This document shows, one piece after another, positions 15,318-37,621 of a DNA stretch of 52,643 nt. The notes beneath the pieces were generated by a model. That model was not told the DNA's origin. It searched no databases and saw nothing but the letters and a program-made list of their open reading frames with translations. Source of the DNA: a virus. Both the position numbers and the translations under genes were made by a program. The stretch's first letter is position 1, and every line of letters begins with the position of its first letter. The stretch is taken from positions 72,322-124,964 of the IMG/VR virus record IMGVR_UViG_3300027816_000067; one strand, written 5' to 3'.

Positions 15318-15783
15318 ATTCTGCTTGTGGATTTAATTGTACTGCTTTTGCAACTGCTCTTCTATTTCCTGTCATTGGTGTAAACTTATACATTTTACAA
15401 TTCTTAATAAAAGTAGCTGCTTTATCTTTAAACCAAGACCATTTATAATAATCTCCTTCATGGTAAATAAACCATTTTACACCATCAAGTGCAGTAGTTT
15501 TATTAAAAGGAGTAAGTCCACTATCTATTAATTCCTGTTTTCTCTTTTTAGAAGCTCCCCAATTAATACTTTCACCCTTTCTTGCTACACGAAGAACTTT
15601 AAAATATCCTATATTTATTTTAAAATTATATTCGTTAAATATAATTTTATTAGAAACACCTTTATGAAATTCTCTAACTACATCGTAAAAATCTCTATAG
15701 GAACAAGTTTCTTTATTTATTAAACCTTGTTCTATGCAAAGATTATAAATTGATCTAGTATTATATTGACTGTTAGGATTCAT
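15301..15783 (-). CDS. Connector-cluster protein, function unknown
   Basis: A 160-aa basic, soluble protein (YNTRSIYNLCIEQGLINKET; WGASKKRKQELIDSGLTPFN; KWFIYHEGDYYKWSW). It overlaps the next gene by 17 bases and the previous one by 11, so it is part of a tightly coupled neck-gene cluster. Conservation of order suggests a ring or collar role in a crAss-like tail. No family motif is visible to me. Confidence 0.5.
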   Translation of the reverse strand: MNPNSQYNTRSIYNLCIEQGLINKETCSYRDFYDVVREFHKGVSNKIIFNEYNFKINIGYFKVLRVARKGESINWGASKKRKQELIDSGLTPFNKTTALDGVKWFIYHEGDYYKWSWFKDKAATFIKNCKMYKFTPMTGNRRAVAKAVQLNPQAEYASHS

Positions 15784-16417
15784 TTAATTTAATTTCTTGC
15801 GTTTCTGGTACTTGACGTACTGATCTATATTCTTCAAGAATAAATTGTTTAATAAGACGTTTCATATCATCATCAATATAAACAGCCTCTAAACAAGGTT
15901 TACCTTCACAATTAGTTAAATTTAATAATTCTAATGGATTACCAAATACATCTCTAACATTAATACGTTGTGTAGCACTATTAAAAATATAAATGTATCC
16001 ATCTACATAATCGTAATAAGTATCTGATTTAGTAAATTTATTACCTTCTAATATATTTTTTATAATGTAAGAAGGAGCGTAAGTAAATGCTTTTTCTGCA
16101 TTAGCGGAACCAACAAATAAGAAAGGAGTAGACATATTATTTGTTCTAACTCCAGAAGGAACTCTGTCTATTGTTCTAGATACTTCACACTCTATATCTT
16201 CGTCAATGCAACATTCAACTGCTTTAACTTTCTTTAATTTTAAACAAATTTTTTGCTCGCTACCTCTAGGAAATCTACCATTTTTATCAAACTCTTGTTT
16301 TAAAATAGTTGCTCTATATCCTATAATAGACTGTTTTAATACCTCTAAAAAAGGTAAATCAAATTGTTTATTAAAAATTGTTGCAATTTCTTCTGCAAAT
16401 ACTTTTATTTCAGTCAT
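15773..16417 (-). CDS. crAss-like neck/ring-type structural protein candidate
   Basis: A 214-aa soluble protein. The N-terminal half contains a Cys-rich stretch (KVKAVECCIDEDIECEV); the C-terminal part is acidic and helical (DDDMKRLIKQFILEEYRSV). It is the first of three overlapping soluble genes before the muzzle gene and comes after the membrane-gene cluster. Role inferred only from position. Confidence 0.5.
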   Translation of the reverse strand: MTEIKVFAEEIATIFNKQFDLPFLEVLKQSIIGYRATILKQEFDKNGRFPRGSEQKICLKLKKVKAVECCIDEDIECEVSRTIDRVPSGVRTNNMSTPFLFVGSANAEKAFTYAPSYIIKNILEGNKFTKSDTYYDYVDGYIYIFNSATQRINVRDVFGNPLELLNLTNCEGKPCLEAVYIDDDMKRLIKQFILEEYRSVRQVPETQEIKLNES

Positions 16418-16788
16418 AGTAATAAAGCAATTACAATAAGTACAGGACTAATAATTTTTAATAACTTATTTTGTCGTTTAAGTTCTTTATTTTCTGATTT
16501 TTTAATATCTACTATCTTATTACTATTAGATTGAATACTGTCTTTGTTTGTGATTATTTTATTATAAATAACACTATCTAATCTATAATTTTTAATAATT
16601 TTATCTTGAGTTAAAATTATAGTATCTTTTTTTGCTATAAGACTATCTTTCTCTAAGCTAATTTTTTTAATAACTTGTAAAGAATCATCTTTTTCTAAAG
16701 ACCATTTTAAAATATTAATATCAACTAAAACTTTCTGACTATAAGTATAATTACTTATTAGTAGAAGTAGAAAAATTATCTTTTTCAT
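16414..16788 (-). CDS. Small exported coiled-coil protein, spanin-like candidate
   Basis: A 124-aa protein with a signal-peptide-like N-terminus (MKKIIFLLLLISNYTYSQ, cleavage probably before Gln18), a long Lys/Asp/Ser coiled-coil region, and a hydrophobic C-terminal anchor (LLKIISPVLIVIALLL). There is no lipobox Cys, so it is not a standard outer-membrane o-spanin. It overlaps the next upstream gene by 38 bases in another frame, a nested or overlapping arrangement often seen in spanin pairs. A role bridging the envelope at lysis is an inference. Confidence 0.5.
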   Translation of the reverse strand: MKKIIFLLLLISNYTYSQKVLVDINILKWSLEKDDSLQVIKKISLEKDSLIAKKDTIILTQDKIIKNYRLDSVIYNKIITNKDSIQSNSNKIVDIKKSENKELKRQNKLLKIISPVLIVIALLL

Positions 16789-17128
16789 ATCTTTTTATTA
16801 TTAACAACAGTACTGAATCTGTTGTTAAATGATTATATCTTCCCTTGATATTACTTAACTCCTTAGTCAATAAAACTATTCTATTATTTCGTAACGTAAC
16901 TTCTTTATTAATAGAATCTATTTTAAGAAATAAATTTAACTTATATTTTGCGTTATATGTTAACGAATCTTTTAGTTTATTATTTATTTCTGTTAATTCT
17001 TTATTTTTTTGTTGTAACTCAAAAATAACTGACTCATTGTATTGTTTCTTATTACCCTCTAAGATTAGAGTAGTAATCAGAACGATTATTAAAAATATAA
17101 GTAAACTAACTGCCTTGTTGTTTCCCAT
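16751..17128 (-). CDS. Small membrane-anchored coiled-coil protein, i-spanin-like candidate
   Basis: A 125-aa protein with one N-terminal transmembrane segment (AVSLLIFLIIVLITTLIL, residues about 6-23) and a long coiled coil (FELQQKNKELTEINNKLKDS onward), the architecture of Rz-type inner-membrane spanins. It overlaps the neighbouring genes by 38 and 23 bases. Together with the 16414-16788 product it could form a two-part spanin, but the partner lacks a lipobox. Confidence 0.5.
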   Translation of the reverse strand: MGNNKAVSLLIFLIIVLITTLILEGNKKQYNESVIFELQQKNKELTEINNKLKDSLTYNAKYKLNLFLKIDSINKEVTLRNNRIVLLTKELSNIKGRYNHLTTDSVLLLIIKRYEKDNFSTSTNK

Positions 17129-17435
17129 ACTTTGTTTGAATAAAATTATCTAAATTTTTACTTCCTAAATTTGCAAAGTAGCATAAATCTAAAGACCACC
17201 ATACCTGTTCTCCAACTGATATACCAAAAACACTAATTATAGCTAGTGTAGGAAATAAAGCAAGCCATATAATAGCAGATAATTCTCGTAATTGCCACCA
17301 AGTATCTTTTCCTCGTAAATCATTAATTATATTATTACGCTGCAAAAAATAAATAGCATATATTTGTATTAAACAAGATATTGCTATAAAATATGCAATA
17401 TAATTAGCAAGATTGTCTTTAATTAAATCAATCAT
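17106..17435 (-). CDS. Small membrane protein, holin-like candidate
   Basis: A 109-aa protein with two hydrophobic segments (about residues 11-30, NYIAYFIAISCLIQIYAIYF, and residues 51-72, LSAIIWLALFPTLAIISVFG). Its size and topology would suit a class II holin, and it lies in a run of overlapping membrane genes near an endolysin gene. No holin family signature is recognised. Confidence 0.45.
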   Translation of the reverse strand: MIDLIKDNLANYIAYFIAISCLIQIYAIYFLQRNNIINDLRGKDTWWQLRELSAIIWLALFPTLAIISVFGISVGEQVWWSLDLCYFANLGSKNLDNFIQTKYGKQQGS

Positions 17436-17815
17436 AATAAACCATCAGGAGGCATAATTCCTTTAAGAACAAGATATAAACCTACAAACTGAATAATTAA
17501 TTTAATAAAGTCTTTAGAAACATCAACCATTTCTTGTTTAAATGTTTTCTTTATATTAAAACTAAGGTCTTGTTCTTTATCTTTTTCGTGTATTTCTTTA
17601 ATTTGTACTTTAAGAGTTTCTATCTCTTTTTCTAACTCTTCTTGTTTTTCAAGAACACCTTTGTGTTTATTTTTCTTATCACCATAAATGCCAGTATTCA
17701 TAGTATAAACTAACTCTAGTACCTCGTCTAGTTTTTTACTAACTTCTCCCAAGTCCACTTTTAATTCTTGCATATCTTGTTCTAAACTATCTAAACGTAG
17801 ATCTTCCATAACCAA
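17432..17815 (-). CDS. Coiled-coil protein with C-terminal membrane anchor (XhlA-like architecture)
   Basis: A 127-aa protein: acidic heptad-rich coiled coil over about residues 1-75 (EDLRLDSLEQDMQELKVDLG), an amphipathic linker, and a C-terminal transmembrane segment (FIKLIIQFVGLYLVLKGIMP). This order resembles XhlA-type lysis accessory proteins, but it is much longer and the match is architectural only. It has a 4-base overlap with the downstream gene. Confidence 0.45.
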   Translation of the reverse strand: MVMEDLRLDSLEQDMQELKVDLGEVSKKLDEVLELVYTMNTGIYGDKKNKHKGVLEKQEELEKEIETLKVQIKEIHEKDKEQDLSFNIKKTFKQEMVDVSKDFIKLIIQFVGLYLVLKGIMPPDGLL

Positions 17816-18255
17816 ATACCGATTAATAATTCAAAAATTTTAATTATACAATTAACAACTGGTACTGTAATCGGTTTATTAAATTTTTTAATTTTTGTAA
17901 ATAATAAACCTATATTTCTTATTGTATTGTCCAATAAGTTATTACCCAGATGAAAAATTCTAGAAAAAGATAGTCTTTCTCTTTGATATGCTACACTAAT
18001 ATTTAATAATATATCAAAAAGGACATGATATATTAATAAAATAGAAAGAAGTAATAGTAAGCTTGTTACTGTTACTCCATAAGTCCTAATTAGTAAAATA
18101 CTAGGAATAATTACACGTAATATTGCATCATATGTATGCCATAGCCTCTGAAATTTTTTATCAGAAGAAATACCATATCTAATAAGCAAACTTTCGTTAG
18201 CTATATTATATATCAGTAAAACTAATACAATTAATATGATTAAATCACTTGTCAT
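17791..18255 (-). CDS. Polytopic small membrane protein, unknown
   Basis: A 154-aa Ile/Leu-rich protein with three to four hydrophobic segments (IILIVLVLLIYNI; VIIPSILLIRTYGVTVTSLL; IIKIFELLIGIWLW). It overlaps both neighbours, by 25 bases and by one base. It belongs to the membrane-gene cluster at 16.4-18.3 kb; a holin or superinfection-exclusion role is possible, but neither can be shown from the sequence. Confidence 0.45.
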   Translation of the reverse strand: MTSDLIILIVLVLLIYNIANESLLIRYGISSDKKFQRLWHTYDAILRVIIPSILLIRTYGVTVTSLLLLLSILLIYHVLFDILLNISVAYQRERLSFSRIFHLGNNLLDNTIRNIGLLFTKIKKFNKPITVPVVNCIIKIFELLIGIWLWKIYV

Positions 18256-18728
18256 TATTGCGTTTTCTTATCTTCTTCTTTTACTAGAAATCCTAATTCT
18301 TCTAATGTAATTTTATTATAAATTGTTAAATCTGCGCCATCAGAAGTAGTAAAGATTTTAAACTTTACAGAAACAGGTTTTTTAAGAAGTTCTCGTAAAT
18401 CTGCTTGACGTTTTTTCTCACCGTCTTTAGTATATACATTTACTTGATATTCTTCTTTAGTATCTACTCCTTTAACTGTTTTAGTTCTTTGCATTGTCTC
18501 TTTTAAGAGTACTTGCTGACCTTTGTCATTTTCATAAGTTGCACAGTTGTCAAGATCAATAACTTGTACTTTTTCGTTATAATCTTCAAACCAAGGTTTC
18601 ATAGAACGAAGTGTTCTAGCTTGCATTTCTCCTCTATGAGTACCCTCTGAAATAGAGATACTGTTAAGAATACTAAATAACTCTAATGCTTTTTCATTAG
18701 TCATTGTTTCTAATTCCTTTTTTTCCAT
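18255..18728 (-). CDS. Soluble phage protein, unknown
   Basis: A 157-aa charged soluble protein (SEGTHRGEMQARTLRSMKPW; KDGEKKRQADLRELLKKPVS). It heads the membrane-gene cluster with a one-base overlap and is preceded by a 70-base AT-rich gap (18729-18798), the longest gap in this part. The gap contains TTGATA and TATAAC-like boxes about 18 bases apart on the minus strand and could hold a promoter. No family recognised. Confidence 0.45.
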   Translation of the reverse strand: MEKKELETMTNEKALELFSILNSISISEGTHRGEMQARTLRSMKPWFEDYNEKVQVIDLDNCATYENDKGQQVLLKETMQRTKTVKGVDTKEEYQVNVYTKDGEKKRQADLRELLKKPVSVKFKIFTTSDGADLTIYNKITLEELGFLVKEEDKKTQ

Positions 18729-18798
18729 AATATAAAAGTTTTGTGGTTATATAATGCTAATATATTAATTATCAACAAGTTAGCCAAATTTTAACTTA

Positions 18799-19305
18799 TT
18801 AAACTAATTTATCCCAAGTAAAATGATCTTTAGGAACTTTAAAAAACATATCTTTAGCTTCTAATCTAAATTCCCAATGCCATCTTTCACTAGGAACTGT
18901 TCTTACTAATTTATTGTATCTAAAAGCATTTTTAACTAACCATTCATAAGAAGGTAGTGTTCCACCTTTAGGATTAGTTACATTAAAATCATAAGCTATA
19001 CCTGGACCATGATTAGAAAAACCAGGTCTTCCTGTTTCAGGATTAAATAATTTAGGACTTGCAGTTTTAAGATAAATAATGTCATTAACTTTTGTTTTAT
19101 CAATAACATTCCTTTTTCTTAAATCCAACTGTTCAATAGGAGTTCTAATACCTTTTGCAATAGATATATCTACACTATTTTTCTTAGCATCTGCTATTAA
19201 GCTTCTAAGAATAGGAGCATAAATTTTAAGTACTTTGGCGTTTCCAATGTACTCATATTCTGCCATTCCTATACTCTTACCATCTTTCCACAATTCTATC
19301 ATCAT
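18799..19305 (-). CDS. Endolysin, peptidase M15 (VanY/D-Ala-D-Ala carboxypeptidase type)
   Basis: A 168-aa protein with the M15 zinc site: SNHGPGIAYDF (His99 and Asp106, the H-x6-D spacing) and ERWHWEF (His143). Family members cut the peptide part of peptidoglycan, acting as L,D- or D,D-peptidases. There is no signal peptide, as expected for a phage endolysin that needs a holin to reach its target. It overlaps the upstream gene by 4 bases and sits beside the membrane-gene cluster, which supports a lysis role. It is a different M15 lineage from the second lysin at 46476-46946. Confidence 0.75.
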   Translation of the reverse strand: MMIELWKDGKSIGMAEYEYIGNAKVLKIYAPILRSLIADAKKNSVDISIAKGIRTPIEQLDLRKRNVIDKTKVNDIIYLKTASPKLFNPETGRPGFSNHGPGIAYDFNVTNPKGGTLPSYEWLVKNAFRYNKLVRTVPSERWHWEFRLEAKDMFFKVPKDHFTWDKLV

Positions 19306-19733
19306 ACTGGTAACTCTCCATTTGCCTGACGAATTAAAATAACTTCTCTTAAAATACCCCTTGCTAAATCATCTAAACAATCTCCATTACCAACTCCCGG
19401 AAATGTATTAAGTATTTTAGACTCAAAATAAAAAGCTAAAGTTATAGCATTAGGATCAACAGTATCATCCGACAAATAAAGTCTTGTTGTAGAAGATATT
19501 TTACGTTGATTTATCATAAAAGTTTCTTCATAACTTTCTACAGCTTTTCGGGCGCGTTGAGTAGTTCCATTAGGAATTGCATCAGTTGTTTCATCAGTCT
19601 CTTTTAATGTTACAAGATATTGCACAAAAAGAGGATAACCGTCTCGTCCTATTGGCGCAGCAGTCAATTCTAGTATCATTCTTTTTCCTGTAACAGCATC
19701 ATTATTTGTCACTTTAAATTTAACTTGTGCCAT
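19302..19733 (-). CDS. Phage structural-type protein, unknown
   Basis: A 143-aa soluble beta/alpha protein beginning MAQVKFKVTNNDAVTGKRMI, with AAPIGRDGYPLFVQYLVTLK and NTFPGVGNGDCLDDLARGIL. It is followed by the endolysin gene with a 4-base overlap. No family recognised; its place among structural and lysis genes suggests a virion or morphogenesis role. Confidence 0.4.
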   Translation of the reverse strand: MAQVKFKVTNNDAVTGKRMILELTAAPIGRDGYPLFVQYLVTLKETDETTDAIPNGTTQRARKAVESYEETFMINQRKISSTTRLYLSDDTVDPNAITLAFYFESKILNTFPGVGNGDCLDDLARGILREVILIRQANGELPV

Positions 19734-19744
19734 ATTATTTTAAT

Positions 19745-20977
19745 TTATATAAATCCATAACCATAAGTTCCTCCACTTGCGGAAGGAGGAGGAGGAGGAG
19801 GATAATGTAAAATTTCTACTTCTATAGTATAGTAGTTAGTAATTGAAAAATTAGAGCAAATTATAGCAAGACCTTCTCCTGGTCTTATCATAATACCTTG
19901 TTGTTTTGTACTATATCCATTACCATTTCCTTTATAATTTAACTGTGATGCAAATAAAGCATTTACTCCAACTTGTGTATTTTGAGGAACTAACAATAAA
20001 TTTCTAACCATACCAATTCCTCTTACAAAAATTGTATTTGATAAAGGATAACCTAAATTTTGTATTAGGTCTAAAGATGTAACTACTGCATACTTTGGAC
20101 CGTTATCTTCTATATGATTTTCTCTAACAGATAAAGCTGTTGGTATCGTTGTATCTGATCTTACTTTAATAGGAGTTATTAATCTACCTCCTCGTAAACC
20201 ACCAAATGTTTTTAAAATTCGTACTTTAGGAGAATCTTGTGCTTCACCAGTAATAGAAAAAGGACCAAGTTCAAACATATCTATGGAATTAATAGATATA
20301 TTTCCAGTAGTTCCTGTTCCATTAGCTAGCCCTATTAAAGCTTGTTTACCGGTATCACAAATTACCTCATTTATAAAATAACTATTTCCATTAAATGAAA
20401 AATTAATATTAATATACCAAGCAGCAGCTCTGCTTGGGTTTGCATTATCATTAGGTGTAATAATAAGTGCTTCATTTTCTCGAATTAGAACTTGTTCAAT
20501 ATTTGCATCGCCATGTCCTGCTCTTAATACTGTTGCTGTTCTTGCACTATTTGTTCCTTGTATAGAACCAAACCCAGTTCTATAATTAATATTTGCAAGT
20601 GCTCCTGCTCCTATTGCAGAAAAAGGAGCAACAAAAACTCTTCTTAATAATGTAAAAGTAGCACCAGGAACAGTGTCAGTATGTTTTCTACAAACTACAG
20701 CAGCAGGTAAATTAGGAGCATTAGATCTTAATTTATTAATATTAATATTAAAATACTCATTATCCTCTGGATTAATTAAAGCAGAAAATCCTGGACCATG
20801 ACTAATGCGTTGTATTAAAAATCTACTATCTGTGCCACTAACCATTGCTGGTTTAATAGTAATATTTTTAACTTCAAAATATCTACGTAAATCAGATTCT
20901 TCATTATTAGTTATACTAATTAATGAATCTTCTTGATTTCCAAAAATATTTCTAACAACTTTAAATGTTTCAGCCAT
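19745..20977 (-). CDS. Virion surface/appendage-type protein with Pro- and Gly-rich tail
   Basis: A 410-aa beta-rich, Asn/Gly/Thr-rich protein ending in a poly-Pro stretch and a Gly/Tyr tip (PPPPPPSASGGTYGYGFI). Two segments look alike, LIRENEALIITPN near residues 165-178 and MIRPGEGLAIICSN near residues 360-373, which suggests two copies of one beta fold; the neighbouring 176-aa protein has a similar SEGFAIVNVTL strand. A capsid decoration or appendage role is inferred. It overlaps the preceding gene by one base. Confidence 0.45.
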   Translation of the reverse strand: MAETFKVVRNIFGNQEDSLISITNNEESDLRRYFEVKNITIKPAMVSGTDSRFLIQRISHGPGFSALINPEDNEYFNININKLRSNAPNLPAAVVCRKHTDTVPGATFTLLRRVFVAPFSAIGAGALANINYRTGFGSIQGTNSARTATVLRAGHGDANIEQVLIRENEALIITPNDNANPSRAAAWYININFSFNGNSYFINEVICDTGKQALIGLANGTGTTGNISINSIDMFELGPFSITGEAQDSPKVRILKTFGGLRGGRLITPIKVRSDTTIPTALSVRENHIEDNGPKYAVVTSLDLIQNLGYPLSNTIFVRGIGMVRNLLLVPQNTQVGVNALFASQLNYKGNGNGYSTKQQGIMIRPGEGLAIICSNFSITNYYTIEVEILHYPPPPPPSASGGTYGYGFI

Positions 20978-21183
20978 TATTGTTGAATATAATTTAAATC
21001 GCCGTTTCTAAAACATTCTAGTTTATAACCTTTAACTAATTTTTTCTGTTCTTTAGGTTCATCATATTCTCCTAAAATAATCCATTCCTCATTGTAACAA
21101 TTACTACAAGGAATAATTCTAGAATTTTCGTCTTTATCAAATTCTACTATACTTTTATGTCCACATTTACATATAAATTCCAT
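20977..21183 (-). CDS. Small zinc-ribbon protein
   Basis: A 68-aa protein with paired Cys sites, CKCGHK at the N-terminus and CSNCYNEEW later, so probably a single zinc ribbon. Such small ribbons are common among phage genes and may bind nucleic acid or protein. It lies between two beta-rich structural genes. Function unknown. Confidence 0.5.
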   Translation of the reverse strand: MEFICKCGHKSIVEFDKDENSRIIPCSNCYNEEWIILGEYDEPKEQKKLVKGYKLECFRNGDLNYIQQ

Positions 21184-21192
21184 AAGATAATT

Positions 21193-21723
21193 TTAAGATG
21201 CACTATCTGTAAATTCGATTTCTGCGTCTGCAGTTACAGTTGCTGTTGCTAATGTAACGTTTACAATAGCAAAACCTTCTGATGTGCCTGACACAGCTGT
21301 TAAAGGTTCTATTGCTGTATCTCCATAACCACTATTCCAAATTTCTCCAAATGGAATAAGAGTTAATAAAGCATCCATATCAAGAGTTGTTACAGTTGCT
21401 TCATCATTTTGCCACAATATTTGACGATAAATATGAGAAGTTGTAATAGTTCTGTTGGTTCCGGCTGTAGTACCAGCATTTAAAGCTGCATAAGCAGAAC
21501 TATGAGGTACAGGTGTAACTCCGGTTCCAGCTGAAGCTGCTGTAATTCGTTGAACACGTACAGTACCTAAACCACCAGTACCAATACCAGTACCGTTGTT
21601 AAGAAAAAACATTCTATAAACTCGAATAAATCGAGTAGATGTGTTAGCATTAAATACATCTAACATATCTTTGTTAGCTGCATATGTAATACCTTGACTT
21701 GTTGCTCTCCAAGTATTTGCCAT
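21193..21723 (-). CDS. Beta-rich virion protein candidate
   Basis: A 176-aa Thr/Ala/Gly-rich protein (FIRVYRMFFLNNGTGIGTGG; VTADAEIEFTDSAS). Composition and predicted beta strands fit a decoration or small structural protein. It shares an EGFAI-type strand near the C-terminus with the 410-aa protein at 19745-20977, so the two may be related. It has Ala/Gly-rich codons but remains in the AT-rich region. Confidence 0.45.
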   Translation of the reverse strand: MANTWRATSQGITYAANKDMLDVFNANTSTRFIRVYRMFFLNNGTGIGTGGLGTVRVQRITAASAGTGVTPVPHSSAYAALNAGTTAGTNRTITTSHIYRQILWQNDEATVTTLDMDALLTLIPFGEIWNSGYGDTAIEPLTAVSGTSEGFAIVNVTLATATVTADAEIEFTDSAS

Positions 21724-21724
21724 A

Positions 21725-22012
21725 TTAATATGTTATAATTTTTCCTGTTCCTTTTGTTGATTTAAATAATTCAATGTCTCCTTTATCAGTTTGAACCTGA
21801 TAAATTCTATTACTTCTTGCTGCTTCAATCATTTTTGCAAACTTATCTTTAGTTTCACCAGGAGGTAATGATCTCCATCTTTCTACATTTATTTTTACTA
21901 CAGCGTTACAAATTAATTTTAAATCATGTTGTGATAGAATCTTACCTTTTTCCGGATGTACTACGTAAACACAATCTCTATCTACATCATATCCTGTTGC
22001 TAAATGTTTCAT
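21725..22012 (-). CDS. Small phage protein, unknown
   Basis: A 95-aa basic soluble protein (KHLATGYDVDRDCVYVVHPE; NVERWRSLPPGETKDKFAKM). It is one base from the next gene and 33 bases from the fibre gene upstream. It is the last clearly AT-rich gene before the fibre. No family recognised. Confidence 0.4.
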   Translation of the reverse strand: MKHLATGYDVDRDCVYVVHPEKGKILSQHDLKLICNAVVKINVERWRSLPPGETKDKFAKMIEAARSNRIYQVQTDKGDIELFKSTKGTGKIITY

Positions 22013-23700
22013 AATTTTAATGGTTAAGTTGTAAATATAAGTTATTTAAGAAGTAACTTCAACTACTAACTCAACACCTATATGATTTGCAGCAGTATTA
22101 GAAGAAACTTCTAATTCAAAATAATCGTTTTCTACAACTGTAGTATCCCAACCTGTTAAAGTAAACCCGTTGTTTGTTCTAGAAGCACTTAACGATGGCT
22201 GAACGGAACCAGTTATATCTACTCCATTTTTTCTAACTCTTAAAGTTGCTGTTGTACTCACATCAGCTAAAGCTTTCCATCTCACAATTCTACCAGCATA
22301 AGGAGAAATAATAATAGTTCTTACTTTTGTACCCGTAGTAACTACTCCTGACTCTCCTGCAATGACTGTAATTATCTTCTCATTCTTTAAAGAATAAATA
22401 CTACCGCTAGGACTTCTCCATTGCCAATTTCCTGCATTAATATAAGTAAATATACCTCCAGTTGGGTTTCCTGTAGGTGCAGTTAATACATTTGCAATAT
22501 ATAAACCACGCTCCATTGACTGCCAAGTCACGGATGTTGTTAACAATCCTATGTTCCCATCTAATCCACTTCCTGCTTTATTACCGTAACTTAAATAAAG
22601 ATCTCCACCATTATTATTTCCGCTTTGAGCATTTCCAGAACGAATTGTAAGATTTTGCCCAACCGCTAGATTACTAGAAGAGTAAATTTCTCTATTGGCG
22701 CTTAAAATAATCCCTGTAAAAGAATTAAGTGATCCTCCGCTTATCAAAACTAATTTAGAGACAGTGTTGAAAAATAACCAGTTATTAATAACAACTTGAT
22801 TTTCCGAATTTAAATGTAGGTTAGCATTAAATAAATTATTACTTGCAGAAATAGTTCTATCACCAGCAAAGGTAGAATCTCCCAATTTTAAGGTTGTAGT
22901 TTGTAATCCTATTGATGCTCCTCCTTTTGGGGAAAGCAATAACGGCACCGCTCCAGCGCTACCATCAGTTACTATTGATCTTGTAGAGCCTGCAACAAGT
23001 GTATTATCTCCTAAAGTAATATCTCCATTGGCAGCACTAAATAATTTTCTACCAATGGCATTAGTGCCATTACTTACCATTAGTTCGTTACTTACTGCAC
23101 TGTTGGTTATTCCACCACCTGCACCTAACCCAACCCAAGCACCATTCTGTCTAAACCTGAATGTGTTAGATGTGGTGTTATACATGATCAACCCATTAAC
23201 CGGACTTGAATCATCTACTGTGTTAGTGCCTACTACAAGAGAGCCATTATTACCTGTTGCAAAAGTTTGGCGGCCAGTAAACGTTTTGGCACTAAGAACG
23301 TAACCTCTATCGACTAAACTTCTGTCGGTGTAGTTAGCTGAATAATCATTTCCATATTTTAACCCTCCCTGTCCAACGTTACCGGCTTCTCCAAAAAAAA
23401 CTTCTTCAACCGCTTCCTGGTTAAACACTCGGAACCTTCCTCCTCCTCCCAAACCATCCCCCGCATTAAAAGTAATTTCGTAGCCACTATAGTCGATAGA
23501 CGTGTTAGAATTAAGACTACCCGTCAACCACCCATTCAAATCACTTCTGCTCGCAGTCTCCTGCCATACTGTACCGTTATGCCAGTTAGGTCTATTACTT
23601 GTTGTTGAATGTATTTGTAAACCACTATAAGGACTTCCAATAGCATTACGTTGGGTATCTGTCATTCGCGGCAAAGCGAAACCCTGTGTGGTGGATTGGA
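22013..23700. other. Composition transition between crAss-like and siphophage parts
   Basis: Bases right of about 23.7 kb are near 50% GC in hand-counted lines; bases left of 22.0 kb drop to 20-35%. Between them, inside the fibre gene, the value is mixed (lines of 37%, 53%, 48% and 35%). Gene content changes at the same place, from HK97-type siphophage genes on the right to crAss-like podophage genes on the left. The transition starts near the repeated GFALPRM...W block (nt 23558-23695), a sequence type shared widely among Bacteroidota phages, so it is a plausible site for recombination or for a false assembly join. Confidence 0.6.
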
Positions 23701-24907
23701 TGTCGAGAATGGTATTGGCATTGGTTAGCGAAGTGCCTCCGATCAACATAGAGCCTGAAGTATTTCGCCATGCGATGTGAGTTGCGCCTGTAAGAGACGT
23801 CAGTGTTGGGTTATAGTCAATGCCGTTGATTGTCCCGCTGTAGCTTGCTGTAGTATTATAGGTTGGATTCAGCTGCAAATGCGTATGCGTATTCGTACCG
23901 GAATTTCTTGTAAATCCTCCTTTGGTGCGGATAAATACACCTGAGTTGACTCCACCTATATTTGTGTCAGAAGTCGTCTCCCGTATCTCCATCGCAGCAC
24001 CACCAGTAGGTATTGATGAAAGATCAAAGCGAAATGGATTTGTTGCCCCCGCAATAGAATTTATTTGGCCCACATTAATATTTGATCCACCTCCTCCGCC
24101 AATAAGTGACGACCAGCCTTGATAAGAACTTCCTATCCATGTATGCGTTGTAGCCGTTGTTGTTAAATTCAATGTACCTTCATCGTTTAGTGTTAATCGT
24201 GTTACGTTGGCGCTATTAGCCACGCGCAAACCAAAGGTCGAAGATGTAGTACCCGTACCACGGACGTCCAGCCTTGTGTTGTCTGTAATAGTGGCACCCG
24301 TGGGCCCAACCAGCAAATTCCCGTTCAGTAGATTCACATTGTTTGCGCCCAAGGCATTAGTTCCTATCGCCAGCAACGTGCCGCTGAAATCGGGCAGCGT
24401 ATAAGTACGATCGGCTGTTATGCCAGTTGCGTCAAAAGTGCGTATGAACGAACTTCCACCTGTGCCTAACCTCCAGTTCAATCGTCCGCTATTATCTGCC
24501 CAAAGCGTTGTTCGGCTTGCGGCACCCGTTGGGTTGGCGCTCTGCCAATCCATCTGCAAAAAGCCAGCGCCAGCAGTGCCGTTCACACGCAGTGATTGCA
24601 AAGTTTCAGCACCGGTAATTCCATACCCGCTAAGAGTGGTGGGGGTGCCAGTGATCTTGCTCCAAGCTAAAGAATTTAACCAAGAAGGATTGGAGTAGCT
24701 ACCAGAAAGAAGGGGAAACAAATTCTGCCACTGAGATATACTCATCTTTCTGTTAGCCCCTCCTTGTACCACAGGCACTAACTCCGTACCAGTTGGGTCA
24801 GTGGCTGCTGGCATGTCGCTTATTTTAACGCTTTGCGCACTTGCCGCAAGCGCAACAAGTAGCAAAATCAGCGCAGCGATTAAGATGGATAGTAATTCAC
24901 GTTTCAT
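22046..24907 (-). CDS. Large tail fibre / receptor-binding protein candidate with signal peptide
   Basis: A 953-aa protein. Residues 1-25 look like a Sec signal peptide (LIAALILLLVALAASAQS), followed by VKISDMPAATDPTGTELVPV, a common opening of Bacteroidota phage fibre and surface proteins. The body is Asn/Thr/Gly-rich repeats; residues 405-450 hold the TTQGFALPRMTDTQRNAI...W block known from Bacteroidota adhesins and fibres, and related W-blocks recur at 570-595 and in the C-terminal third. The C-terminal 90 residues form a beta domain of carbohydrate-binding or trimer-tip type. Base composition falls from about 50% GC in the N-terminal half to 32-40% towards the 3' end by hand counts. It overlaps the holin-like gene by ATGA at 24904-24907. 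Receptor binding is inferred. Confidence 0.65.
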   Translation of the reverse strand: MKRELLSILIAALILLLVALAASAQSVKISDMPAATDPTGTELVPVVQGGANRKMSISQWQNLFPLLSGSYSNPSWLNSLAWSKITGTPTTLSGYGITGAETLQSLRVNGTAGAGFLQMDWQSANPTGAASRTTLWADNSGRLNWRLGTGGSSFIRTFDATGITADRTYTLPDFSGTLLAIGTNALGANNVNLLNGNLLVGPTGATITDNTRLDVRGTGTTSSTFGLRVANSANVTRLTLNDEGTLNLTTTATTHTWIGSSYQGWSSLIGGGGGSNINVGQINSIAGATNPFRFDLSSIPTGGAAMEIRETTSDTNIGGVNSGVFIRTKGGFTRNSGTNTHTHLQLNPTYNTTASYSGTINGIDYNPTLTSLTGATHIAWRNTSGSMLIGGTSLTNANTILDIQSTTQGFALPRMTDTQRNAIGSPYSGLQIHSTTSNRPNWHNGTVWQETASRSDLNGWLTGSLNSNTSIDYSGYEITFNAGDGLGGGGRFRVFNQEAVEEVFFGEAGNVGQGGLKYGNDYSANYTDRSLVDRGYVLSAKTFTGRQTFATGNNGSLVVGTNTVDDSSPVNGLIMYNTTSNTFRFRQNGAWVGLGAGGGITNSAVSNELMVSNGTNAIGRKLFSAANGDITLGDNTLVAGSTRSIVTDGSAGAVPLLLSPKGGASIGLQTTTLKLGDSTFAGDRTISASNNLFNANLHLNSENQVVINNWLFFNTVSKLVLISGGSLNSFTGIILSANREIYSSSNLAVGQNLTIRSGNAQSGNNNGGDLYLSYGNKAGSGLDGNIGLLTTSVTWQSMERGLYIANVLTAPTGNPTGGIFTYINAGNWQWRSPSGSIYSLKNEKIITVIAGESGVVTTGTKVRTIIISPYAGRIVRWKALADVSTTATLRVRKNGVDITGSVQPSLSASRTNNGFTLTGWDTTVVENDYFELEVSSNTAANHIGVELVVEVTS

Positions 24908-25173
24908 TCCGTTTCTGTTTTTTTGCTTACGATTTTTTCAGCACGGTTAAAAATTTTGTCGAAATAATTCTCGTTCATAAACAAAAGAAACAGGCCTAAA
25001 ATTAAAGGCCAAAGAGGTGTGTGCCAGTCGTAAGGTATCTCTGTTTTTAGTTCAAAGAACGCTGGCAGAATATATTTGATCGCGTACATAGTCGCGGATA
25101 TGGACATGAACACGGCTCCCAACATTGTAGTTACAGGGTTTCTTTTTGGGTTTGCATTTTCGATTAAGCTCAT
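24904..25173 (-). CDS. Holin-like two-TM membrane protein
   Basis: An 89-aa protein with two hydrophobic segments (TMLGAVFMSISATMYAIKYI and PLWPLILGLFLLFM) joined by a short polar loop, and a charged Lys/Glu C-terminus. Size, topology and location beside a fibre gene fit phage holins. The gene overlaps the fibre start by 4 bases (ATGA). It belongs compositionally to the GC-richer siphophage part. Confidence 0.55.
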   Translation of the reverse strand: MSLIENANPKRNPVTTMLGAVFMSISATMYAIKYILPAFFELKTEIPYDWHTPLWPLILGLFLLFMNENYFDKIFNRAEKIVSKKTETE

Positions 25174-25189
25174 ATAGATTTTGTTTTTA

Positions 25190-25645
25190 TTACTCTACTA
25201 AAATGTTTCCAGTGCCATCTTCAAGGCCAATAGGCGTTGTACCGTCTTCCATCAATATAAAGCCTTCCTCCGCCGAAGGTGGCGGCACAAAGATAAAAGG
25301 TATTCCGCGTCTGTAATACTTTTCTGTGCTTTGCACTCCATCAAACGCGCAAACGTAAAAGAAAAGCCCCTCAGATAAATCCTGTTCGGCCACACTTGCC
25401 GATGTTCCTTTACCTCTGTAAACAACTTGAAAGCGCGGGTTATCGTCTGCCTTTGAGTATGTAATGCCGTCAAGGGGAAAGAAATCAAACGGCTTTTTAC
25501 TGGCAACAACTAGCGACTGTTCTCCGTTGCCTTTTGTCCATGACAAAGTTTGAGTGCCTGAGTTGTATAGCACGTTGGTATCCTGCACGGTAGGGGTTAT
25601 CTCCGCGTGATTGGTTACCTGGCCATATATGTTTCCATTTCTCAA
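25190..25645 (-). CDS. Minor tail/tail-tip protein candidate
   Basis: A 151-aa beta-rich protein. The middle looks like an Ig- or fibronectin-type fold (NVLYNSGTQTLSWTKGNGEQ; FFYVCAFDGVQS) and the end carries the FILMEDGTTPIGLEDGTGNI motif, a pattern I associate with short tail or baseplate proteins of Bacteroidota phages. It overlaps the next gene by 4 bases. Role in the tail tip is inferred from position downstream of the tape-measure block. Confidence 0.5.
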   Translation of the reverse strand: MRNGNIYGQVTNHAEITPTVQDTNVLYNSGTQTLSWTKGNGEQSLVVASKKPFDFFPLDGITYSKADDNPRFQVVYRGKGTSASVAEQDLSEGLFFYVCAFDGVQSTEKYYRRGIPFIFVPPPSAEEGFILMEDGTTPIGLEDGTGNILVE

Positions 25646-26088
25646 AGCAAGTTTAAATAATTTTCGTCCTTCAAAGTTAAGAAAACTGCACCAGTAAAAA
25701 ACGGGTACTTATCCGATAGCTTTTCCATCTCGTAATTTTCCTCTTTCAACCAACTTTGGTTTTGAATGAAAATCGAATTGTGCTGCAAGGCAAGTTTTAG
25801 TTTTTTGTGCTCGTAAGGCGGCATAGGTTCAACCTCCAAATGTCGCTGTGTTTTAGTCGTGCTCGAAAGTTTGTCAATACTTCCGCTGCCATCCTCCACG
25901 CTTTCGTTTTCTTCGGGGTATCGCTCCTCGTAAAATCGGGCAAAAATCCGGTGATTGAAAGCGGGCGAACCCGAATTGTAAATAATCCCGGCAAAGTCTG
26001 AATCGTTCGATACCGTTACCAATAGCGAATCCTCGTGCAAATCGCGCACGTTTTGAAGATCAGACCGAGCGATAACGACCTTTGCCAT
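25642..26088 (-). CDS. Tail-region protein, unknown
   Basis: A 148-aa acidic soluble protein (VIARSDLQNVRDLHEDSLLV; FARFYEERYPEENESVEDGS). It lies in the tail operon between two small beta proteins and overlaps the next gene by 4 bases. It reads as a structural or assembly protein, but no family is recognised. Confidence 0.4.
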   Translation of the reverse strand: MAKVVIARSDLQNVRDLHEDSLLVTVSNDSDFAGIIYNSGSPAFNHRIFARFYEERYPEENESVEDGSGSIDKLSSTTKTQRHLEVEPMPPYEHKKLKLALQHNSIFIQNQSWLKEENYEMEKLSDKYPFFTGAVFLTLKDENYLNLL

Positions 26089-26092
26089 ACGG

Positions 26093-26482
26093 TTAAGCCT
26101 GTACGGTTATGGTGCAACCGGTAATGTTTACGGCTGCCCCGGACGTGATTGCATCGTCATCTATAATCAAATCCGCTCCTGATTCTGCTACGGACATATC
26201 CATCACGATTAACCCGGATGAGCTTATGAAGCGGGCATATCCAGCCGTGCCGGTACCTGATGCCAGGCCTAACCAGGTTCCATTTTTTGAAATCACGCCA
26301 CCGCTGGCCGCAGTAAATGGACTTGCCGGTAGCGTAATCGTGCAAAGCAACGTGCCGGAAGCAGCATCGTTTGCCGAAGCTGGCTGAGTTCCGGTTCGAA
26401 TTTGGACAGTGCCGTTAGCAAACAGTCCGGCCTTATGGTTTGCGATTGAGTTGCGGTAGTTCGTGTTTTTTCTGTACGCCAT
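26093..26482 (-). CDS. Small structural/tail protein candidate
   Basis: A 129-aa Ala/Gly/Thr-rich beta protein (NGTVQIRTGTQPASANDAAS; GTAGYARFISSSGLIVMDMS). The pattern resembles small phage proteins carrying a beta-sandwich, often found near tail-fibre genes. No signal peptide. Assignment is from composition and location. Confidence 0.45.
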   Translation of the reverse strand: MAYRKNTNYRNSIANHKAGLFANGTVQIRTGTQPASANDAASGTLLCTITLPASPFTAASGGVISKNGTWLGLASGTGTAGYARFISSSGLIVMDMSVAESGADLIIDDDAITSGAAVNITGCTITVQA

Positions 26483-26505
26483 AAATTGTTTATTTAACTT
26501 TTTTT

Positions 26506-27336
26506 TTACTCTTCTATTGGAACACTCCGTTCATAAATTTCTATTGCTAAGTCATCCGTAGGCAGAAGCTCAGTGTAGTTGTAAATGATTTCCGACATGT
26601 TGTCGCCTATGTTGAATACATGGGTGTGCACAGCAGTTCCGTTTTTGTAGAATTTCACCAAACCGACATCTTGAGCAATGCCGCCATTTGATGTTTTCTG
26701 CGCCCGGCCAGTTACGTTGCCAGTGCCATCGCTTTGCAAAATACCGCTTTCGGTATCGCTTAATCCTAAGCTGGTATCTAAACTAAATGATTTAATTTCC
26801 AGGGTGTTTGTAAATCGTGACTCCCAGAATAGGAAGCTAGTAAATCCAAACAAGCTGCCAACGATGTCGTAAGGGATGGCATTAACGATAGTTCCGGCCA
26901 CGGCTTCCACTGGATCGTTTACGCCACCTGAAATATTGAATGCCGTCACGGTGTTGGTTATGGTTCCGGATACCGCTTCAATTGGGTCAACCACCCCACC
27001 GTTAATATCAAAGAACGACAGCACAATTTGAGCCCGGACGTAGGCGTTATCTACTCCAATGTCCGTCCAACGGAAACCCGTATCAAAAACGTAGATACCA
27101 TTTACAAATGATTTAGTAAAGGCCCGTGTGTGCAGCACCGTTCCGGCCTTGTCTAAAATTTCAAGCTGATAATTGAAATCGCTTGTGTCGTAAAACTGCA
27201 ATGCGATTTCATCTTCAGCGTTCCACTTTTTAAAGTAACACGCATGATCTACACCGGGCTCCGGCTTTTCGTTGTAAGTGGGAACGCCAAGCGGCCAAAA
27301 CTGAATCGGTATTGCATTTGAGATATTTATGCTCAT
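26506..27336 (-). CDS. Tail protein candidate with internal 24-residue repeat
   Basis: A 276-aa beta-rich protein. The start (ISNAIPIQFWPLGVPTYNEK) and body (EDEIALQFYDTSDFNYQLEI) resemble minor tail proteins found after the tail-hub gene in Bacteroidota siphophages. Residues 109-128 and 133-152 are near-copies of one unit (INGGVVDPIEAVSGTITN and ISGGVNDPVEAVAGTIVN). A 30-base gap separates it from the 714-aa tail gene; no promoter is evident there. Confidence 0.5.
   Translation of the reverse strand: MSINISNAIPIQFWPLGVPTYNEKPEPGVDHACYFKKWNAEDEIALQFYDTSDFNYQLEILDKAGTVLHTRAFTKSFVNGIYVFDTGFRWTDIGVDNAYVRAQIVLSFFDINGGVVDPIEAVSGTITNTVTAFNISGGVNDPVEAVAGTIVNAIPYDIVGSLFGFTSFLFWESRFTNTLEIKSFSLDTSLGLSDTESGILQSDGTGNVTGRAQKTSNGGIAQDVGLVKFYKNGTAVHTHVFNIGDNMSEIIYNYTELLPTDDLAIEIYERSVPIEE
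26881..27012 (-). repeat. Tandem 24-codon repeat in minor tail gene
   Basis: Two adjacent copies of a GGV-DP-EAV-GTI-N unit start 24 residues apart in the 276-aa tail protein. The protein copies are about 75% identical, while third codon positions differ, so this is an older duplication rather than an assembly artefact. Confidence 0.7.
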
Positions 27337-27366
27337 GGCTCTACGTCAGTTACAGTAATATAATTC

Positions 27367-29511
27367 TCATAGTTCTTCATTGTTTCTCTGAATTAGGAGC
27401 ATGTTCGCCTTGCTTTTGAATACTGAATAGTCTAAATCTAATAGATAACAGGGAATAAATCCAGTACTTCCTCTACTAATTCCCACTGCGTTATTCTTAT
27501 TTTCATTCAGCAACTTGTACGTTTCCCAGCTCATTTCATAATTACCGACTTCCACCAAGTAAGGGTACCAAAGCCTTGGTGAACCCGTAGATGAGTAGTT
27601 TGACCGCTCATTTATTAATTCGTCAGGATTGGTAGTAGCTTCATAATCAGTAGGACGTAATCTAGTTTGAGCTAAGTTATTTCCCTCTCCTCTTCCAAAC
27701 ATGTACAACAACCCATCATAGTTGAATAAATTCCTCCACCGTTTAAAGACCCTCATCACAGTGTGGCGAAGATTGGCTCTTGCAGAGGAGTTTAAAATTC
27801 CAGTTATTGAAGCAAAGTTTTCCGCAAACTCAAGTTGCCAATTACTTCCATCCGGAATAACAGACACCAGCATCATGTCCTCATCCAATCGGTCATCCTT
27901 GCCAAACTCTAGTTTGTTCCTCCTGCTCCGCTCAATAGCCAGCCCAGCAGTTATAAAGGAACTTAAAATTTTCAAGTCTTCCCCAAAGGTAGCCGCCTGT
28001 ACATTTCGGGTCTGCTTTGTCTGAGGGTCATCAATACCTGAACTACTTTCAGCACTCCATTTCTGATAACCAATCTCCACACTATTTATAAACCTCTCTG
28101 CATCAAACCTTCGTACTATGTTTCGACAATCTGGAAAATTAACAATAACAGTAGGATTGAAAGCGTATGCCTTATCCTCAATGTAAATTTTGTCTTCACC
28201 TAAAACCTTAGTGTACCCTAAACAAAGATTGAACATCGGGTCAGCTCCTTTCCACCACTCGTCAAATGACATTGAAATCTCCTTGGTGGCGAAGTCATAA
28301 CCACGATTGTGTTTGCCTCTAAAAATTGCGTTCCTATTAAAGGTAGCGTTGCTGAATTTAGTTGATACTAGGGGAGAGTTATTGGAAGTGTACTTACGCA
28401 GTATATTATCCGCAGCATCTTTTATAAGGAATGCATCCGTGGAGGAATCTGGAAATGAGCTGTTAGTCTGAGCATATAAACGGTTTGTGCTAGCAACATC
28501 AAAATGAACTCTGTTGGTACTACCAAATGCCTCAAGATTCGAAGTCACACGGATATAAAAATAAAATTCATCTCCTGCTGAACAGTCGGTAAATGTAGGA
28601 TTGAATGAAGGTTGAAGCGCTCCGAAATTCAACCACCCACTATCATAAGGAACATTAGTCAAAACAGTATGTGGCAAAAATACTGTAGTGTGGATATCCA
28701 AGACCCCAGTTTCTATTTTTCTACGAACAATAAAAATATCAGCAGATATTGTGTCAAAGTTTTGGGGGTCTCCGACAGTAATCTTCATTCGCATTTCATT
28801 GGAGAACACCCAATCTCCTGTACTTCTGGAATTAAGTTTTAGGAAAAATAGTCTATCTGTTGTAGGAAGATTGTTACTAACTTGGTCTTCAATACCAAAA
28901 AACTCTCCAACATCATCATTTAGTTGATTGGCTGAGAGAGCAGGGATAAAATACTTAGTAGTGTTGCCTGTGTAAGTTGCCCCAAAAAAAGGAGTTGCTG
29001 AATCCCTATCTGCACGAATCTGCTTCAGCAACAGTTGACTTCGCATTTTAACAATAGTTTTCGGAACTACTGTTACAGTGCCTCCACCTACAGCTCCAGT
29101 AGATAGAAGATCAACAGGCTTCTTTATTTGGTTTATGAACTTACTCCAAAAATCATCTCGAATAACAGGTGCTACAATTTTATACTCCTGGTCTCCGGCT
29201 GAAAGTTCCTCCATCTGAATAAGTCGAATGGTTCCGGTATATAAAGTTTCCCACACCCCCTCTTCAAAAGAAATCTCGAATCTTACTCCAATTACAGTAC
29301 TGGGGCCAAATGAGTTCCTAATAGTTCTAAGAGTTTCAAAGGCCGAACCGTACCACATGAAGTTGCCTTTGAAGTGTTCAATTAGCGTGTGGTATTCCTC
29401 ATGCCGCTCAAGGGACAGAGTAATATCCTTCCACCCAGCAGGGTTGGTTACAATTTGCTGTCCTCCAGAAATACTTGGATGGATGAAGTAGGTTCTGAAT
29501 GCCGGAGTCAT
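27367..29511 (-). CDS. Large tail-tip/tail-hub-type protein
   Basis: A 714-aa protein starting MTPAFRTYFIHPSISGGQQI, with GWKDITLSLERHEEYHTLIE and FEISFEEGVWETLYTGTIRL in the N-terminal part, an opening that looks like a distal-tail or hub domain. The rest is mixed beta, with WYPYLVEVGNYEMSWETYKL near the end. It directly follows the tape-measure gene (4-base overlap at 29508-29511), the usual place of distal tail and tail-associated hub proteins. Membership in the hub class is inferred from position and size. Confidence 0.55.
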   Translation of the reverse strand: MTPAFRTYFIHPSISGGQQIVTNPAGWKDITLSLERHEEYHTLIEHFKGNFMWYGSAFETLRTIRNSFGPSTVIGVRFEISFEEGVWETLYTGTIRLIQMEELSAGDQEYKIVAPVIRDDFWSKFINQIKKPVDLLSTGAVGGGTVTVVPKTIVKMRSQLLLKQIRADRDSATPFFGATYTGNTTKYFIPALSANQLNDDVGEFFGIEDQVSNNLPTTDRLFFLKLNSRSTGDWVFSNEMRMKITVGDPQNFDTISADIFIVRRKIETGVLDIHTTVFLPHTVLTNVPYDSGWLNFGALQPSFNPTFTDCSAGDEFYFYIRVTSNLEAFGSTNRVHFDVASTNRLYAQTNSSFPDSSTDAFLIKDAADNILRKYTSNNSPLVSTKFSNATFNRNAIFRGKHNRGYDFATKEISMSFDEWWKGADPMFNLCLGYTKVLGEDKIYIEDKAYAFNPTVIVNFPDCRNIVRRFDAERFINSVEIGYQKWSAESSSGIDDPQTKQTRNVQAATFGEDLKILSSFITAGLAIERSRRNKLEFGKDDRLDEDMMLVSVIPDGSNWQLEFAENFASITGILNSSARANLRHTVMRVFKRWRNLFNYDGLLYMFGRGEGNNLAQTRLRPTDYEATTNPDELINERSNYSSTGSPRLWYPYLVEVGNYEMSWETYKLLNENKNNAVGISRGSTGFIPCYLLDLDYSVFKSKANMLLIQRNNEEL

Positions 29512-31781
29512 TTGCCCATTACTGATCTACGAATCAACTTTCTATTTCTGTGCTCGTCTTCCCGAACTTCATAGAGCAACGAACCTTGGCGCACTAAGCT
29601 CGGTTGAGAGGATTTGTAAGCAGCTATCAACTTTTTATTCTCCTCCCTCATTACCTTAGCCATTGTCAGCATACCAAGCTGCTCTGAGTTCATACGTTGC
29701 TCTACACCAATGCCTGAAAGCGCAAGAGCCTTGGTCTCGTCAGCAGTAAACACCTTAGAGCCTTTCTCCAAGTAAGTGAGTGAAGGCCCATTGGGAGACA
29801 AGGAGAATCTCCCAGAAGGAGTTTGAATCAACTCTGGCCCCTTCTCCCCAACAATTGCCAAACCTCCCGGTGCGAAGTCGGTACCTTTTTCGAATTTCAT
29901 TATTTGAGATCGGGCTGTAGCAAATGCAATTTTAATCAGCCCTGAGATTGCAAGGGCTCTCGCTATACCAGTAGCTCCGAAGGTAAGAACAGAATCTGGG
30001 GTAGATAAGGCTTGAGCTGTAGCCTTTGCAATGGTAGCATGCTGCACTGCCAGTAACTCCTTCTCAACCTGATTAAGTAGGAACACCAAGGCTCCTTTCG
30101 AAAGCGCCCTGATAAAATTATCATTGGACTGGAGCGCTCCCTGAATTGTAGCTACTAACTCGTTGGTCAGAGAGGTCATGTACATAGTCTCATCCATGAA
30201 CTGTTTTTTGCGCCGTTCAGACTGACTCATAAACTTTTCTGTAGTCTCCTCTCCGTATCCATTTATGACTTCTTGTACCTGCTCCTCCCAAGTCTTCAAT
30301 TCCTGTAAACGAACAAGCATTGCATCAAACTCTTCTTTCCGCTTCTTATCTTGTTCGTTTAACATCTGAGCCCGTTGCAAGTCAGCATTGATCTCGTTTT
30401 GAATTCGCTGCTCTAATTCAGCCTTCAATTTGGCAGTAAGTTCCTTAGCGTTTTTTGTTCTGGTGGCCTGTTCTTCAGCGTCAATCAATAACAACTCTTT
30501 GGATGCATCTTGGCGAATCTTTAACAACTCGGCTTCCTCGTCCTCAGTCAGCTTACGGTTTTCTTTAAAGTAAACCGCTTTGTTGCCCAGTAACCAAAGA
30601 GCAAGTGTCTTTGCTTTATTTACTTCGGCAACACCGGCCTCTCTTTGCCTATCGACACTCTTAATAATCTCCTCTTGTTTCTTGCGCTCTAGATCAAAAG
30701 TTGCCTCACCTCGTATTTGAAGCAGTCTAATTTCCAGATCGTATCTTTCTTCCATCGTTGTTCTCTCCTTAGCGTAGCGCTCAATAGCTTTTTGACTAAC
30801 TTCGTCAGCAATATCCGAAAACCACTTGAATGCAGCAGCAGCGGCAACCAATACACCCGCGACCAAGAAAATTGGATTGGAGAACAAAGCAACTCCAATG
30901 GCTTTAAAGGACTTTCCGATTCCTCCCAAGCCTTCAATAATTTCTTTGGAAGACATTCCCTTCAAACTTGCTGCTAACTGATTGGCCGAAGTGGCCGCAC
31001 CGCTCAAGTCCCCAGCTCGAAGTTGGGACCCCAATTGTTGAAAAGACCCTGCAATGTTTTCCACTCCTGAGGCTTGAGTGTTCTTCACCGCATCATTAAT
31101 ATCATTAAGTTCGTCTTTCAATTTACCGGCTCTTTGAGCAGCGGCAATAAATTCTGGACTGCCTGTACCAAGCGTTGCTGCAATTCCTGCCATCTCATCT
31201 TTAGCCGCACGTAACTCCAGCTTCAATTCCTTAGTGGCGTTTTCATATTGGCCAACCTTATCTTGGTGCTGACCCATACTTGCCTTCAAGTCTTTCACGG
31301 CTTGGTCTTGTTCTTCAATAACCTTCAATAACTCCCGACCACTATCGCTGTTTCGTTCTTGGTCACTGCGGAGTTCGCGGTAGGCATTACGATTCGCCTT
31401 GAGGGCAGCTTCCAATTCATGAAGGCTGGAAGTCTGAGCCTTAACGGACTTTGCATCCTTATCACCAAGAACAGACTTTTGTCTAGTCTCTTCCTTAACT
31501 TTTTGAAGTACTTTGATTTGATCTTGGTAAGCTTGAGTGTTTCGAGCTTCGGCAGTGGCCACTTGCTTCTGGATTTTCTCTAGCTCCATTTGAGCTAATG
31601 TTAAATCTTCAATAGCTTTCTTGTGTTTCGAGGGGCTATCTCCATTAGCAGCAGCGTTGAAACTCTTCGTTACCTCCATAAGTTTGTAGGCAGAGTTGAC
31701 GGCCTCCATCATGTTCTTGCTGAGGACTAACGGAGCGTCAATAGCTTCCTGGGATAGAATGTCTTGTTTTTGAATACTCAT
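29508..31781 (-). CDS. Tail tape measure protein
   Basis: A 757-aa protein. Residues about 55-240 are helical coiled coil, 294-320 a hydrophobic segment (IGVALFSNPIFLVAGVLVAA), then a second long helical charged region, and at the C-terminus the tape-measure-type motif FAPGGLAIVGEKGPELIQTP. It sets tail length and helps DNA exit in long-tailed phages; the usual rule of about 0.15 nm per residue gives a tail of roughly 110 nm. It lies between a chaperone-like gene (4-base overlap) and the tail-tip gene, as expected. Its presence shows that region B encodes a siphovirus-type tail. Confidence 0.85.
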   Translation of the reverse strand: MSIQKQDILSQEAIDAPLVLSKNMMEAVNSAYKLMEVTKSFNAAANGDSPSKHKKAIEDLTLAQMELEKIQKQVATAEARNTQAYQDQIKVLQKVKEETRQKSVLGDKDAKSVKAQTSSLHELEAALKANRNAYRELRSDQERNSDSGRELLKVIEEQDQAVKDLKASMGQHQDKVGQYENATKELKLELRAAKDEMAGIAATLGTGSPEFIAAAQRAGKLKDELNDINDAVKNTQASGVENIAGSFQQLGSQLRAGDLSGAATSANQLAASLKGMSSKEIIEGLGGIGKSFKAIGVALFSNPIFLVAGVLVAAAAAFKWFSDIADEVSQKAIERYAKERTTMEERYDLEIRLLQIRGEATFDLERKKQEEIIKSVDRQREAGVAEVNKAKTLALWLLGNKAVYFKENRKLTEDEEAELLKIRQDASKELLLIDAEEQATRTKNAKELTAKLKAELEQRIQNEINADLQRAQMLNEQDKKRKEEFDAMLVRLQELKTWEEQVQEVINGYGEETTEKFMSQSERRKKQFMDETMYMTSLTNELVATIQGALQSNDNFIRALSKGALVFLLNQVEKELLAVQHATIAKATAQALSTPDSVLTFGATGIARALAISGLIKIAFATARSQIMKFEKGTDFAPGGLAIVGEKGPELIQTPSGRFSLSPNGPSLTYLEKGSKVFTADETKALALSGIGVEQRMNSEQLGMLTMAKVMREENKKLIAAYKSSQPSLVRQGSLLYEVREDEHRNRKLIRRSVMGK

Positions 31782-32305: not shown

Positions 32306-32333
32306 AAAGACTTTTAATGGTATTTTAGAGTAG

Positions 32334-33634: not shown

Positions 33635-33640
33635 AATTTT

Positions 33641-34899: not shown

Positions 34900-34912
34900 C
34901 GAATTGTTTTTT

Positions 34913-35362: not shown

Positions 35363-35396
35363 TTTTCTTCTTTTACTTTTTCGTTACACCATTCGA

Positions 35397-36635: not shown

Positions 36636-36648
36636 TTTTTTGATGGTT

Positions 36649-37455: not shown

Positions 37456-37621
37456 TAGGTGTTACTTCAACTATAAAATGATTAACAGAAAAATACACAA
37501 TGCCACCATCGTTTTTGTTAACTTCAATGCAGTCTTTTAATTGGCAAACGCTTGTAGCGGTGTACGTTGCAATTGTAAAGAACATTAACGTTTTTACTTC
37601 AACTTTCATTAATGTGTTCAT
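37433..37621 (-). CDS. Small protein between portal and protease genes, unknown
   Basis: A 62-aa protein (MKVEVKTLMFFTIATYTATS; KNDGGIVYFSVNHFIVEVTP) with a weakly hydrophobic N-terminus, then a beta-like segment. It overlaps the protease start by 23 bases and the 35-aa gene by ATGA at 37618-37621. The tight coupling supports a real gene; function unknown. Confidence 0.4.
   Translation of the reverse strand: MNTLMKVEVKTLMFFTIATYTATSVCQLKDCIEVNKNDGGIVYFSVNHFIVEVTPIANENTH

Follow-up and report, generated by a model that had tools for sequence, protein, structure and literature searches.

The window analyzed here, a stretch of 52,643 bases, is the last part of the 124,964-bp IMG/VR record IMGVR_UViG_3300027816_000067. 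The right ends of the two coincide and the window starts at record position 72,322; contig coordinates below refer to whole-record numbering. Between a crAss-like block on the left and a siphophage block on the right lies a 953-aa fibre ORF (Table 1), which was confirmed to be unbroken. The GC content is 0.297 in window 1-22045 vs 0.448 in window 24908-43000, and along the record low-GC sequence at 6-95 kb is flanked by high-GC sequence, at 1-6 kb and beyond 95 kb. Capsid and portal genes are present separately on each side of this switch. The 125 kb of the record form one unbroken sequence, in which the end of the siphophage tail region is followed by a first copy of the repeat, the crAss-like genome, the second copy and siphophage sequence again. 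The switch in composition and gene content that was noticed in the sequence-only reading is therefore real, as GC and gene families both differ.

Table 1. Features of the window, in window coordinates.
Feature	Position	Strand	Basis or remarks
crAss-like block	1..22045	-	crAss_CARG1; collinear with crAss relative G021; GC 0.297
Hybrid fibre ORF, 953 aa	22046..24907	-	siphophage N-terminus 340 aa, shared middle ~233 aa, crAss C-terminus ~379 aa
crAss-side fibre C-terminal part, GC 0.361	22046..23186	-	continuation in IMGVR_UViG_3300008450_000933; native predecessor is contig 5735-7540
701-bp exact repeat, GC 0.444	23187..23887	-	identical to contig 5034-5734 and to the independent crAss contig
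Remainder of shared module, GC 0.434	23888..24235	-	~95% to contig 5735-6082; siphophage alleles
Siphophage-only fibre N-terminal part, GC 0.507	24236..24907	-	
Siphophage block	24908..52643	.	Pfam/profile matches; near-identical siphophage-only contigs elsewhere
Tape measure	29508-31781		
HK97 capsid (Phage_capsid)	35397-36635		
Portal (Phage_portal)	37884-39368		
Terminase (Terminase_3)	39536-40954		
YqaJ, replication gene	44325-45059	plus	
DnaB-like helicase, replication gene	48548-49483	plus	

The crAss-like block of the window is the right part of a ~90.5-kb crAss-like genome, the remainder of which (contig 5735-72321) lies to the left of the window. The Pfam domain crAss_CARG1 (cargo-1 domain) is found at window 8644-10728. 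To the left of the window, the portal matches gp20 of crAss001 (PDB 7qog, 2e-32) and phrog_6547 (6e-87), while the MCP matches phrog_11589 (3e-78) and aligns with crAss MCPs across 98% of its length. The left part thus carries both the MCP and the portal of the crAss type, taken here as the mark of Crassvirales, and the description of the left genes as crAss-like is borne out. The likeness to known Crassvirales (cr8_1, crAss002 and crAss001) includes the cargo-1 domain and a relationship across most of the portal and MCP sequences, and the spacing of the repeat copies would fit their genome size of ~90 kb; however, the MCP here is only ~29-31% identical to theirs, and the phage belongs to an environmental lineage. 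A diverged tandem repeat array, with copies ~76-83% alike, is also present in the crAss part at contig 32815-33087 (12815-13087 in L004).

In the right part, terminase, portal, HK97 capsid and tape measure are found in order, as in an HK97-type siphophage, and the block also encodes a methylase alongside YqaJ and the DnaB-like helicase. The earlier assignment to an HK97-type siphophage with a tape measure holds by these Pfam families, whereas the GC content, put previously near 50%, is 39-49%. The lysis genes placed on this side could not be confirmed, with no Pfam match in the small ORFs at 24904-27336. The siphophage sequence in the record sets a lower bound of 34,490 bp on the genome, which rises to 37,140 bp when an independent contig is added as an extension; this is a plausible size for a siphophage. 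The circle was not closed: the extending contig (G004) reaches 2,650 bp beyond the right end and falls short of the left end. Most portal matches come from phages of Flavobacterium and Polaribacter. Polaribacter phages Freya and Danklef, Flavobacterium phage hattifnatt and Leeuwenhoekiella phage Arctus_1 have portals related at 24-28% and genomes of a similar size class, and the fibre N-terminus is 49% identical to that of Arctus_1 over 65 residues. These Flavobacteriia siphophages are nevertheless distant, and the phage collection gave no match at the DNA level.

Two other features of the siphophage are mentioned here. Beside a ParB-domain gene at window 41823-42863, two siphophage contigs (L007 and L009) are unmatched over most of 41516-42777, which is possibly a strain-variable segment. 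At the right end (window 50470-51061), small ORFs are each flanked by a private pair of inverted arms, and such ORFs are also found at 939-1373, 1488-1873 and 2087-2434 of L032 (IMGVR_UViG_3300008114_000366), a siphophage contig extending beyond the record. The arms are 15-22 nt long, perfect or near-perfect, AT-rich and 310-550 nt apart; six perfect pairs of at least 14 nt at 100-700 nt spacing occur in 6.5 kb vs 0.035 expected from first-order Markov sequences. The arm-enclosed ORFs might be mobile small-gene units. One of them, encoding 108 aa, contains a patch of 152 bp (L032 1528-1679) that recurs at 97% identity in the crAss-like phage, at contig 30358-30509 (L004 10358-10509), and an independent crAss contig (G007) ends within this patch.

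A second fibre ORF, of 1126 aa, is located near the left end of the record at contig 4160-7540, outside the window. The two ORFs share 1,139 bp at 96% identity, including 701 identical bases (window 23187-23887 and contig 5034-5734). Outside the shared stretch, similarity between the copies ends sharply towards the C-terminus and fades gradually towards the N-terminus. The left ORF has a C-flank with a GC content of 0.485 and an N-flank of 0.371, and the window ORF mirrors these values with 0.361 and 0.507, so that both ORFs combine a crAss-like half with a siphophage half, one in the reverse order of the other. The join had been placed in or just downstream of the 953-aa ORF. It lies inside the ORF, with the breakpoint anywhere in the 701-bp repeat and no finer placement, and a second, mirror-image join is present at contig 5034-5734. 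Database comparisons of the fibres yielded little: there was no Pfam match for the fibre proteins and no PHROGs match for the left ORF, the proteins have only weak, partial matches in the phage collection, and megablast of both halves against that collection found no match.

When the flanks are re-paired, the C-flank from the window and the N-flank from the left copy give an open 1215-aa fibre of the crAss-like phage, and the left C-flank and the window N-flank give an open 864-aa fibre of the siphophage. The first of these pairings is observed in an independent assembly. The 15.9-kb contig IMGVR_UViG_3300008450_000933, from another metagenome, is 99.7-100% identical to the crAss species of the record and connects the crAss capsid genes, by way of the N-terminal part of the fibre and the 701-bp repeat, with the C-flank of the window. 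Its alleles are those of the left copy at 20 of 20 sites on the N-side, identical over the 701 bp, and those of the window at 22 of 23 sites on the C-side. Beyond the module, its last 94 bases match the window at 89 positions and the left copy at 34. This contig shows the native path of the crAss-like phage, which is broken in the studied record. In a crAss relative (G021) that covers the stretch between window ~17 kb and contig 7.5 kb, the counterparts of the genes at contig 89.7 kb and 7.5 kb lie ~5.3 kb apart, and no siphophage gene is matched between them. Re-pairing would yield a crAss circle of ~90.5 kb. The two copies of the repeat are 90,474 bp apart, a normal size for a crAss-like genome (83-95 kb for known crAss genomes).

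For the siphophage, near-identical contigs carrying siphophage sequence only were found in several other metagenomes. One of them (L042), from another sample, has siphophage alleles at all 19 sites on entering the module and ends 114 bp into the repeat. No contig of the exact species was found to cross the repeat, and the native siphophage path is based on relatives. One relative (G015) is collinear through portal, capsid, tape measure and fibre, and its collinearity extends to contig 4178-80, where a 509-aa protein and small genes are encoded; the C-terminus of its fibre shares 46% identity with that of the left copy. Another (G013, 38.4 kb) contains relatives of both siphophage ends, and in both G015 and G013 the left-end genes of the record co-occur with the siphophage capsid. 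Differing flank pairing in independent assemblies is thus seen in the same species for the crAss-like phage and in relatives only for the siphophage. The sequence-only reading had held that a mosaic phage would be contradicted if, among other signs, each half matched a different intact genome with another continuation past the join. Largely this is what the genome fragments show, with the crAss half continuing on its own in an independent sample and the siphophage relatives leading to genes at the other end of the record. Siphophage capsid and crAss portal occur together in none of the 14 related records. In IMG/VR, a search that reaches close relatives only found the module elsewhere in two records, one a crAss and one a siphophage contig, and searches with the C-terminal part of either fibre returned nothing beyond IMGVR_UViG_3300008450_000933.

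We conclude that the record is almost certainly an assembly chimera. Its sources would be two distinct phages of a single community, one crAss-like with ~90.5 kb and the other a siphophage of the HK97 type with ~34.5 kb or more. A chimera at a shared fibre motif had been suggested as the simpler view. The present analysis supports it and traces the cause to the identical repeat of 701 bp found at both joins. This length exceeds a short read and probably the usual read pair, and an assembler would be unable to match entries with exits in a repeat longer than the read. Two circles with one common exact stretch would form a figure of eight in the assembly graph. With two entries and two exits, one pairing would give two circles and the other a single walk through both, and the record has the second form. 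The wrong pairing would lead from siphophage to crAss at the left copy and from crAss to siphophage at the right copy. We infer that the swap occurred in assembly and not in the cell, and under this chimera reading the 953-aa and 1126-aa ORFs are therefore both artificial hybrids. It should be mentioned that many assemblers break at such a repeat instead of walking through it, which counts against a chimera. Published work on phage assembly has attributed chimeric contigs and breaks to repeats and to regions shared between phage genomes (PMC10563150, Phables; PMC10914622, COBRA). The record resembles these cases in that an exact stretch is common to two genomes in one sample and the flanks are mispaired; it differs in that the walk crosses the whole second genome and returns, leaving both hybrid joins in one record.

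One crossover between two genomes, circular or concatemeric, would produce precisely this arrangement, in which both hybrid ORFs stay open. If two co-infecting phages had recombined once, by homology, within the 701 bp they share, a transient cointegrate of ~127 kb uniting both genomes could have formed in the cell and then been sequenced. For an assembler to recover such a molecule, however, it would need to be more abundant than the two parental phages, and no phage head, crAss-like or siphophage, is known to package a joined genome of ~127 kb, which also counts against it. Moreover, the crAss-only path is present in another sample and siphophage-only contigs in several, and the IMG/VR module search, with its reach of close relatives only, gave no further hybrid record. 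We regard a cointegrate as very unlikely.

The intact ORFs at both joins and the continuity of the record could also be taken to indicate a stable mosaic lineage with two complete structural programmes, that is, a true phage with both tail types. Against this, the composition remains distinct between the two parts, each part has relatives lacking the other, the same crAss species in another sample crosses the repeat without siphophage sequence, and the set of related records holds no carrier of both. A mosaic lineage is thus not supported, and its probability is close to nil. Two fibre ORFs in one record whose middle parts are 96% identical would also be expected from a single phage with a duplicated fibre gene, the copies being kept alike by gene conversion. 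The flanks of the copies come from different phages, as judged by composition and relatives, and are re-paired in an independent contig. Duplication within one genome was rejected on these grounds as extremely improbable.

With the chimera recognized, the record no longer stands as evidence for a phage with two tail types, and the 125-kb IMG/VR entry should be split. The near-identical fibre module is nonetheless genuinely common to the crAss-like phage and the siphophage. A crAss contig from one sample holds the whole 1.14-kb module, and the siphophage contig L042 from another sample holds 462 bp on the N-side, of which 348 bp lie outside the exact repeat and are diverged but homologous; identity across all 701 bp in the siphophage itself is seen in the studied record alone. 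The shared module implies that part of a fibre gene was exchanged recently between unrelated phages, a known kind of event. Fibre modules common to distantly related phages have been described for Alteromonas schitovirus A5 and others (PMC10579305), where a host-recognition segment is likewise near-identical across unrelated morphologies. Here, in contrast, the partners are a crAss-like phage and a siphophage, and only the ~1.1-kb middle of the fibre gene is common. The GC content of the module (0.44) is nearer that of the siphophage than that of the crAss-like phage, which suggests that it moved towards the crAss-like phage. A search for the module in bacterial genomes did not find it.

Both phages are probably phages of Flavobacteriia. 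Since the crAss MCP also matches Flavobacterium phages, as the siphophage portal does together with Polaribacter phages, a common flavobacterial host is plausible. The 701 bp identical in both suggest that the two phages met in the same, possibly flavobacterial, host and exchanged receptor-binding segments. The shared module thereby offers a clue to which host an environmental crAss-like phage infects.
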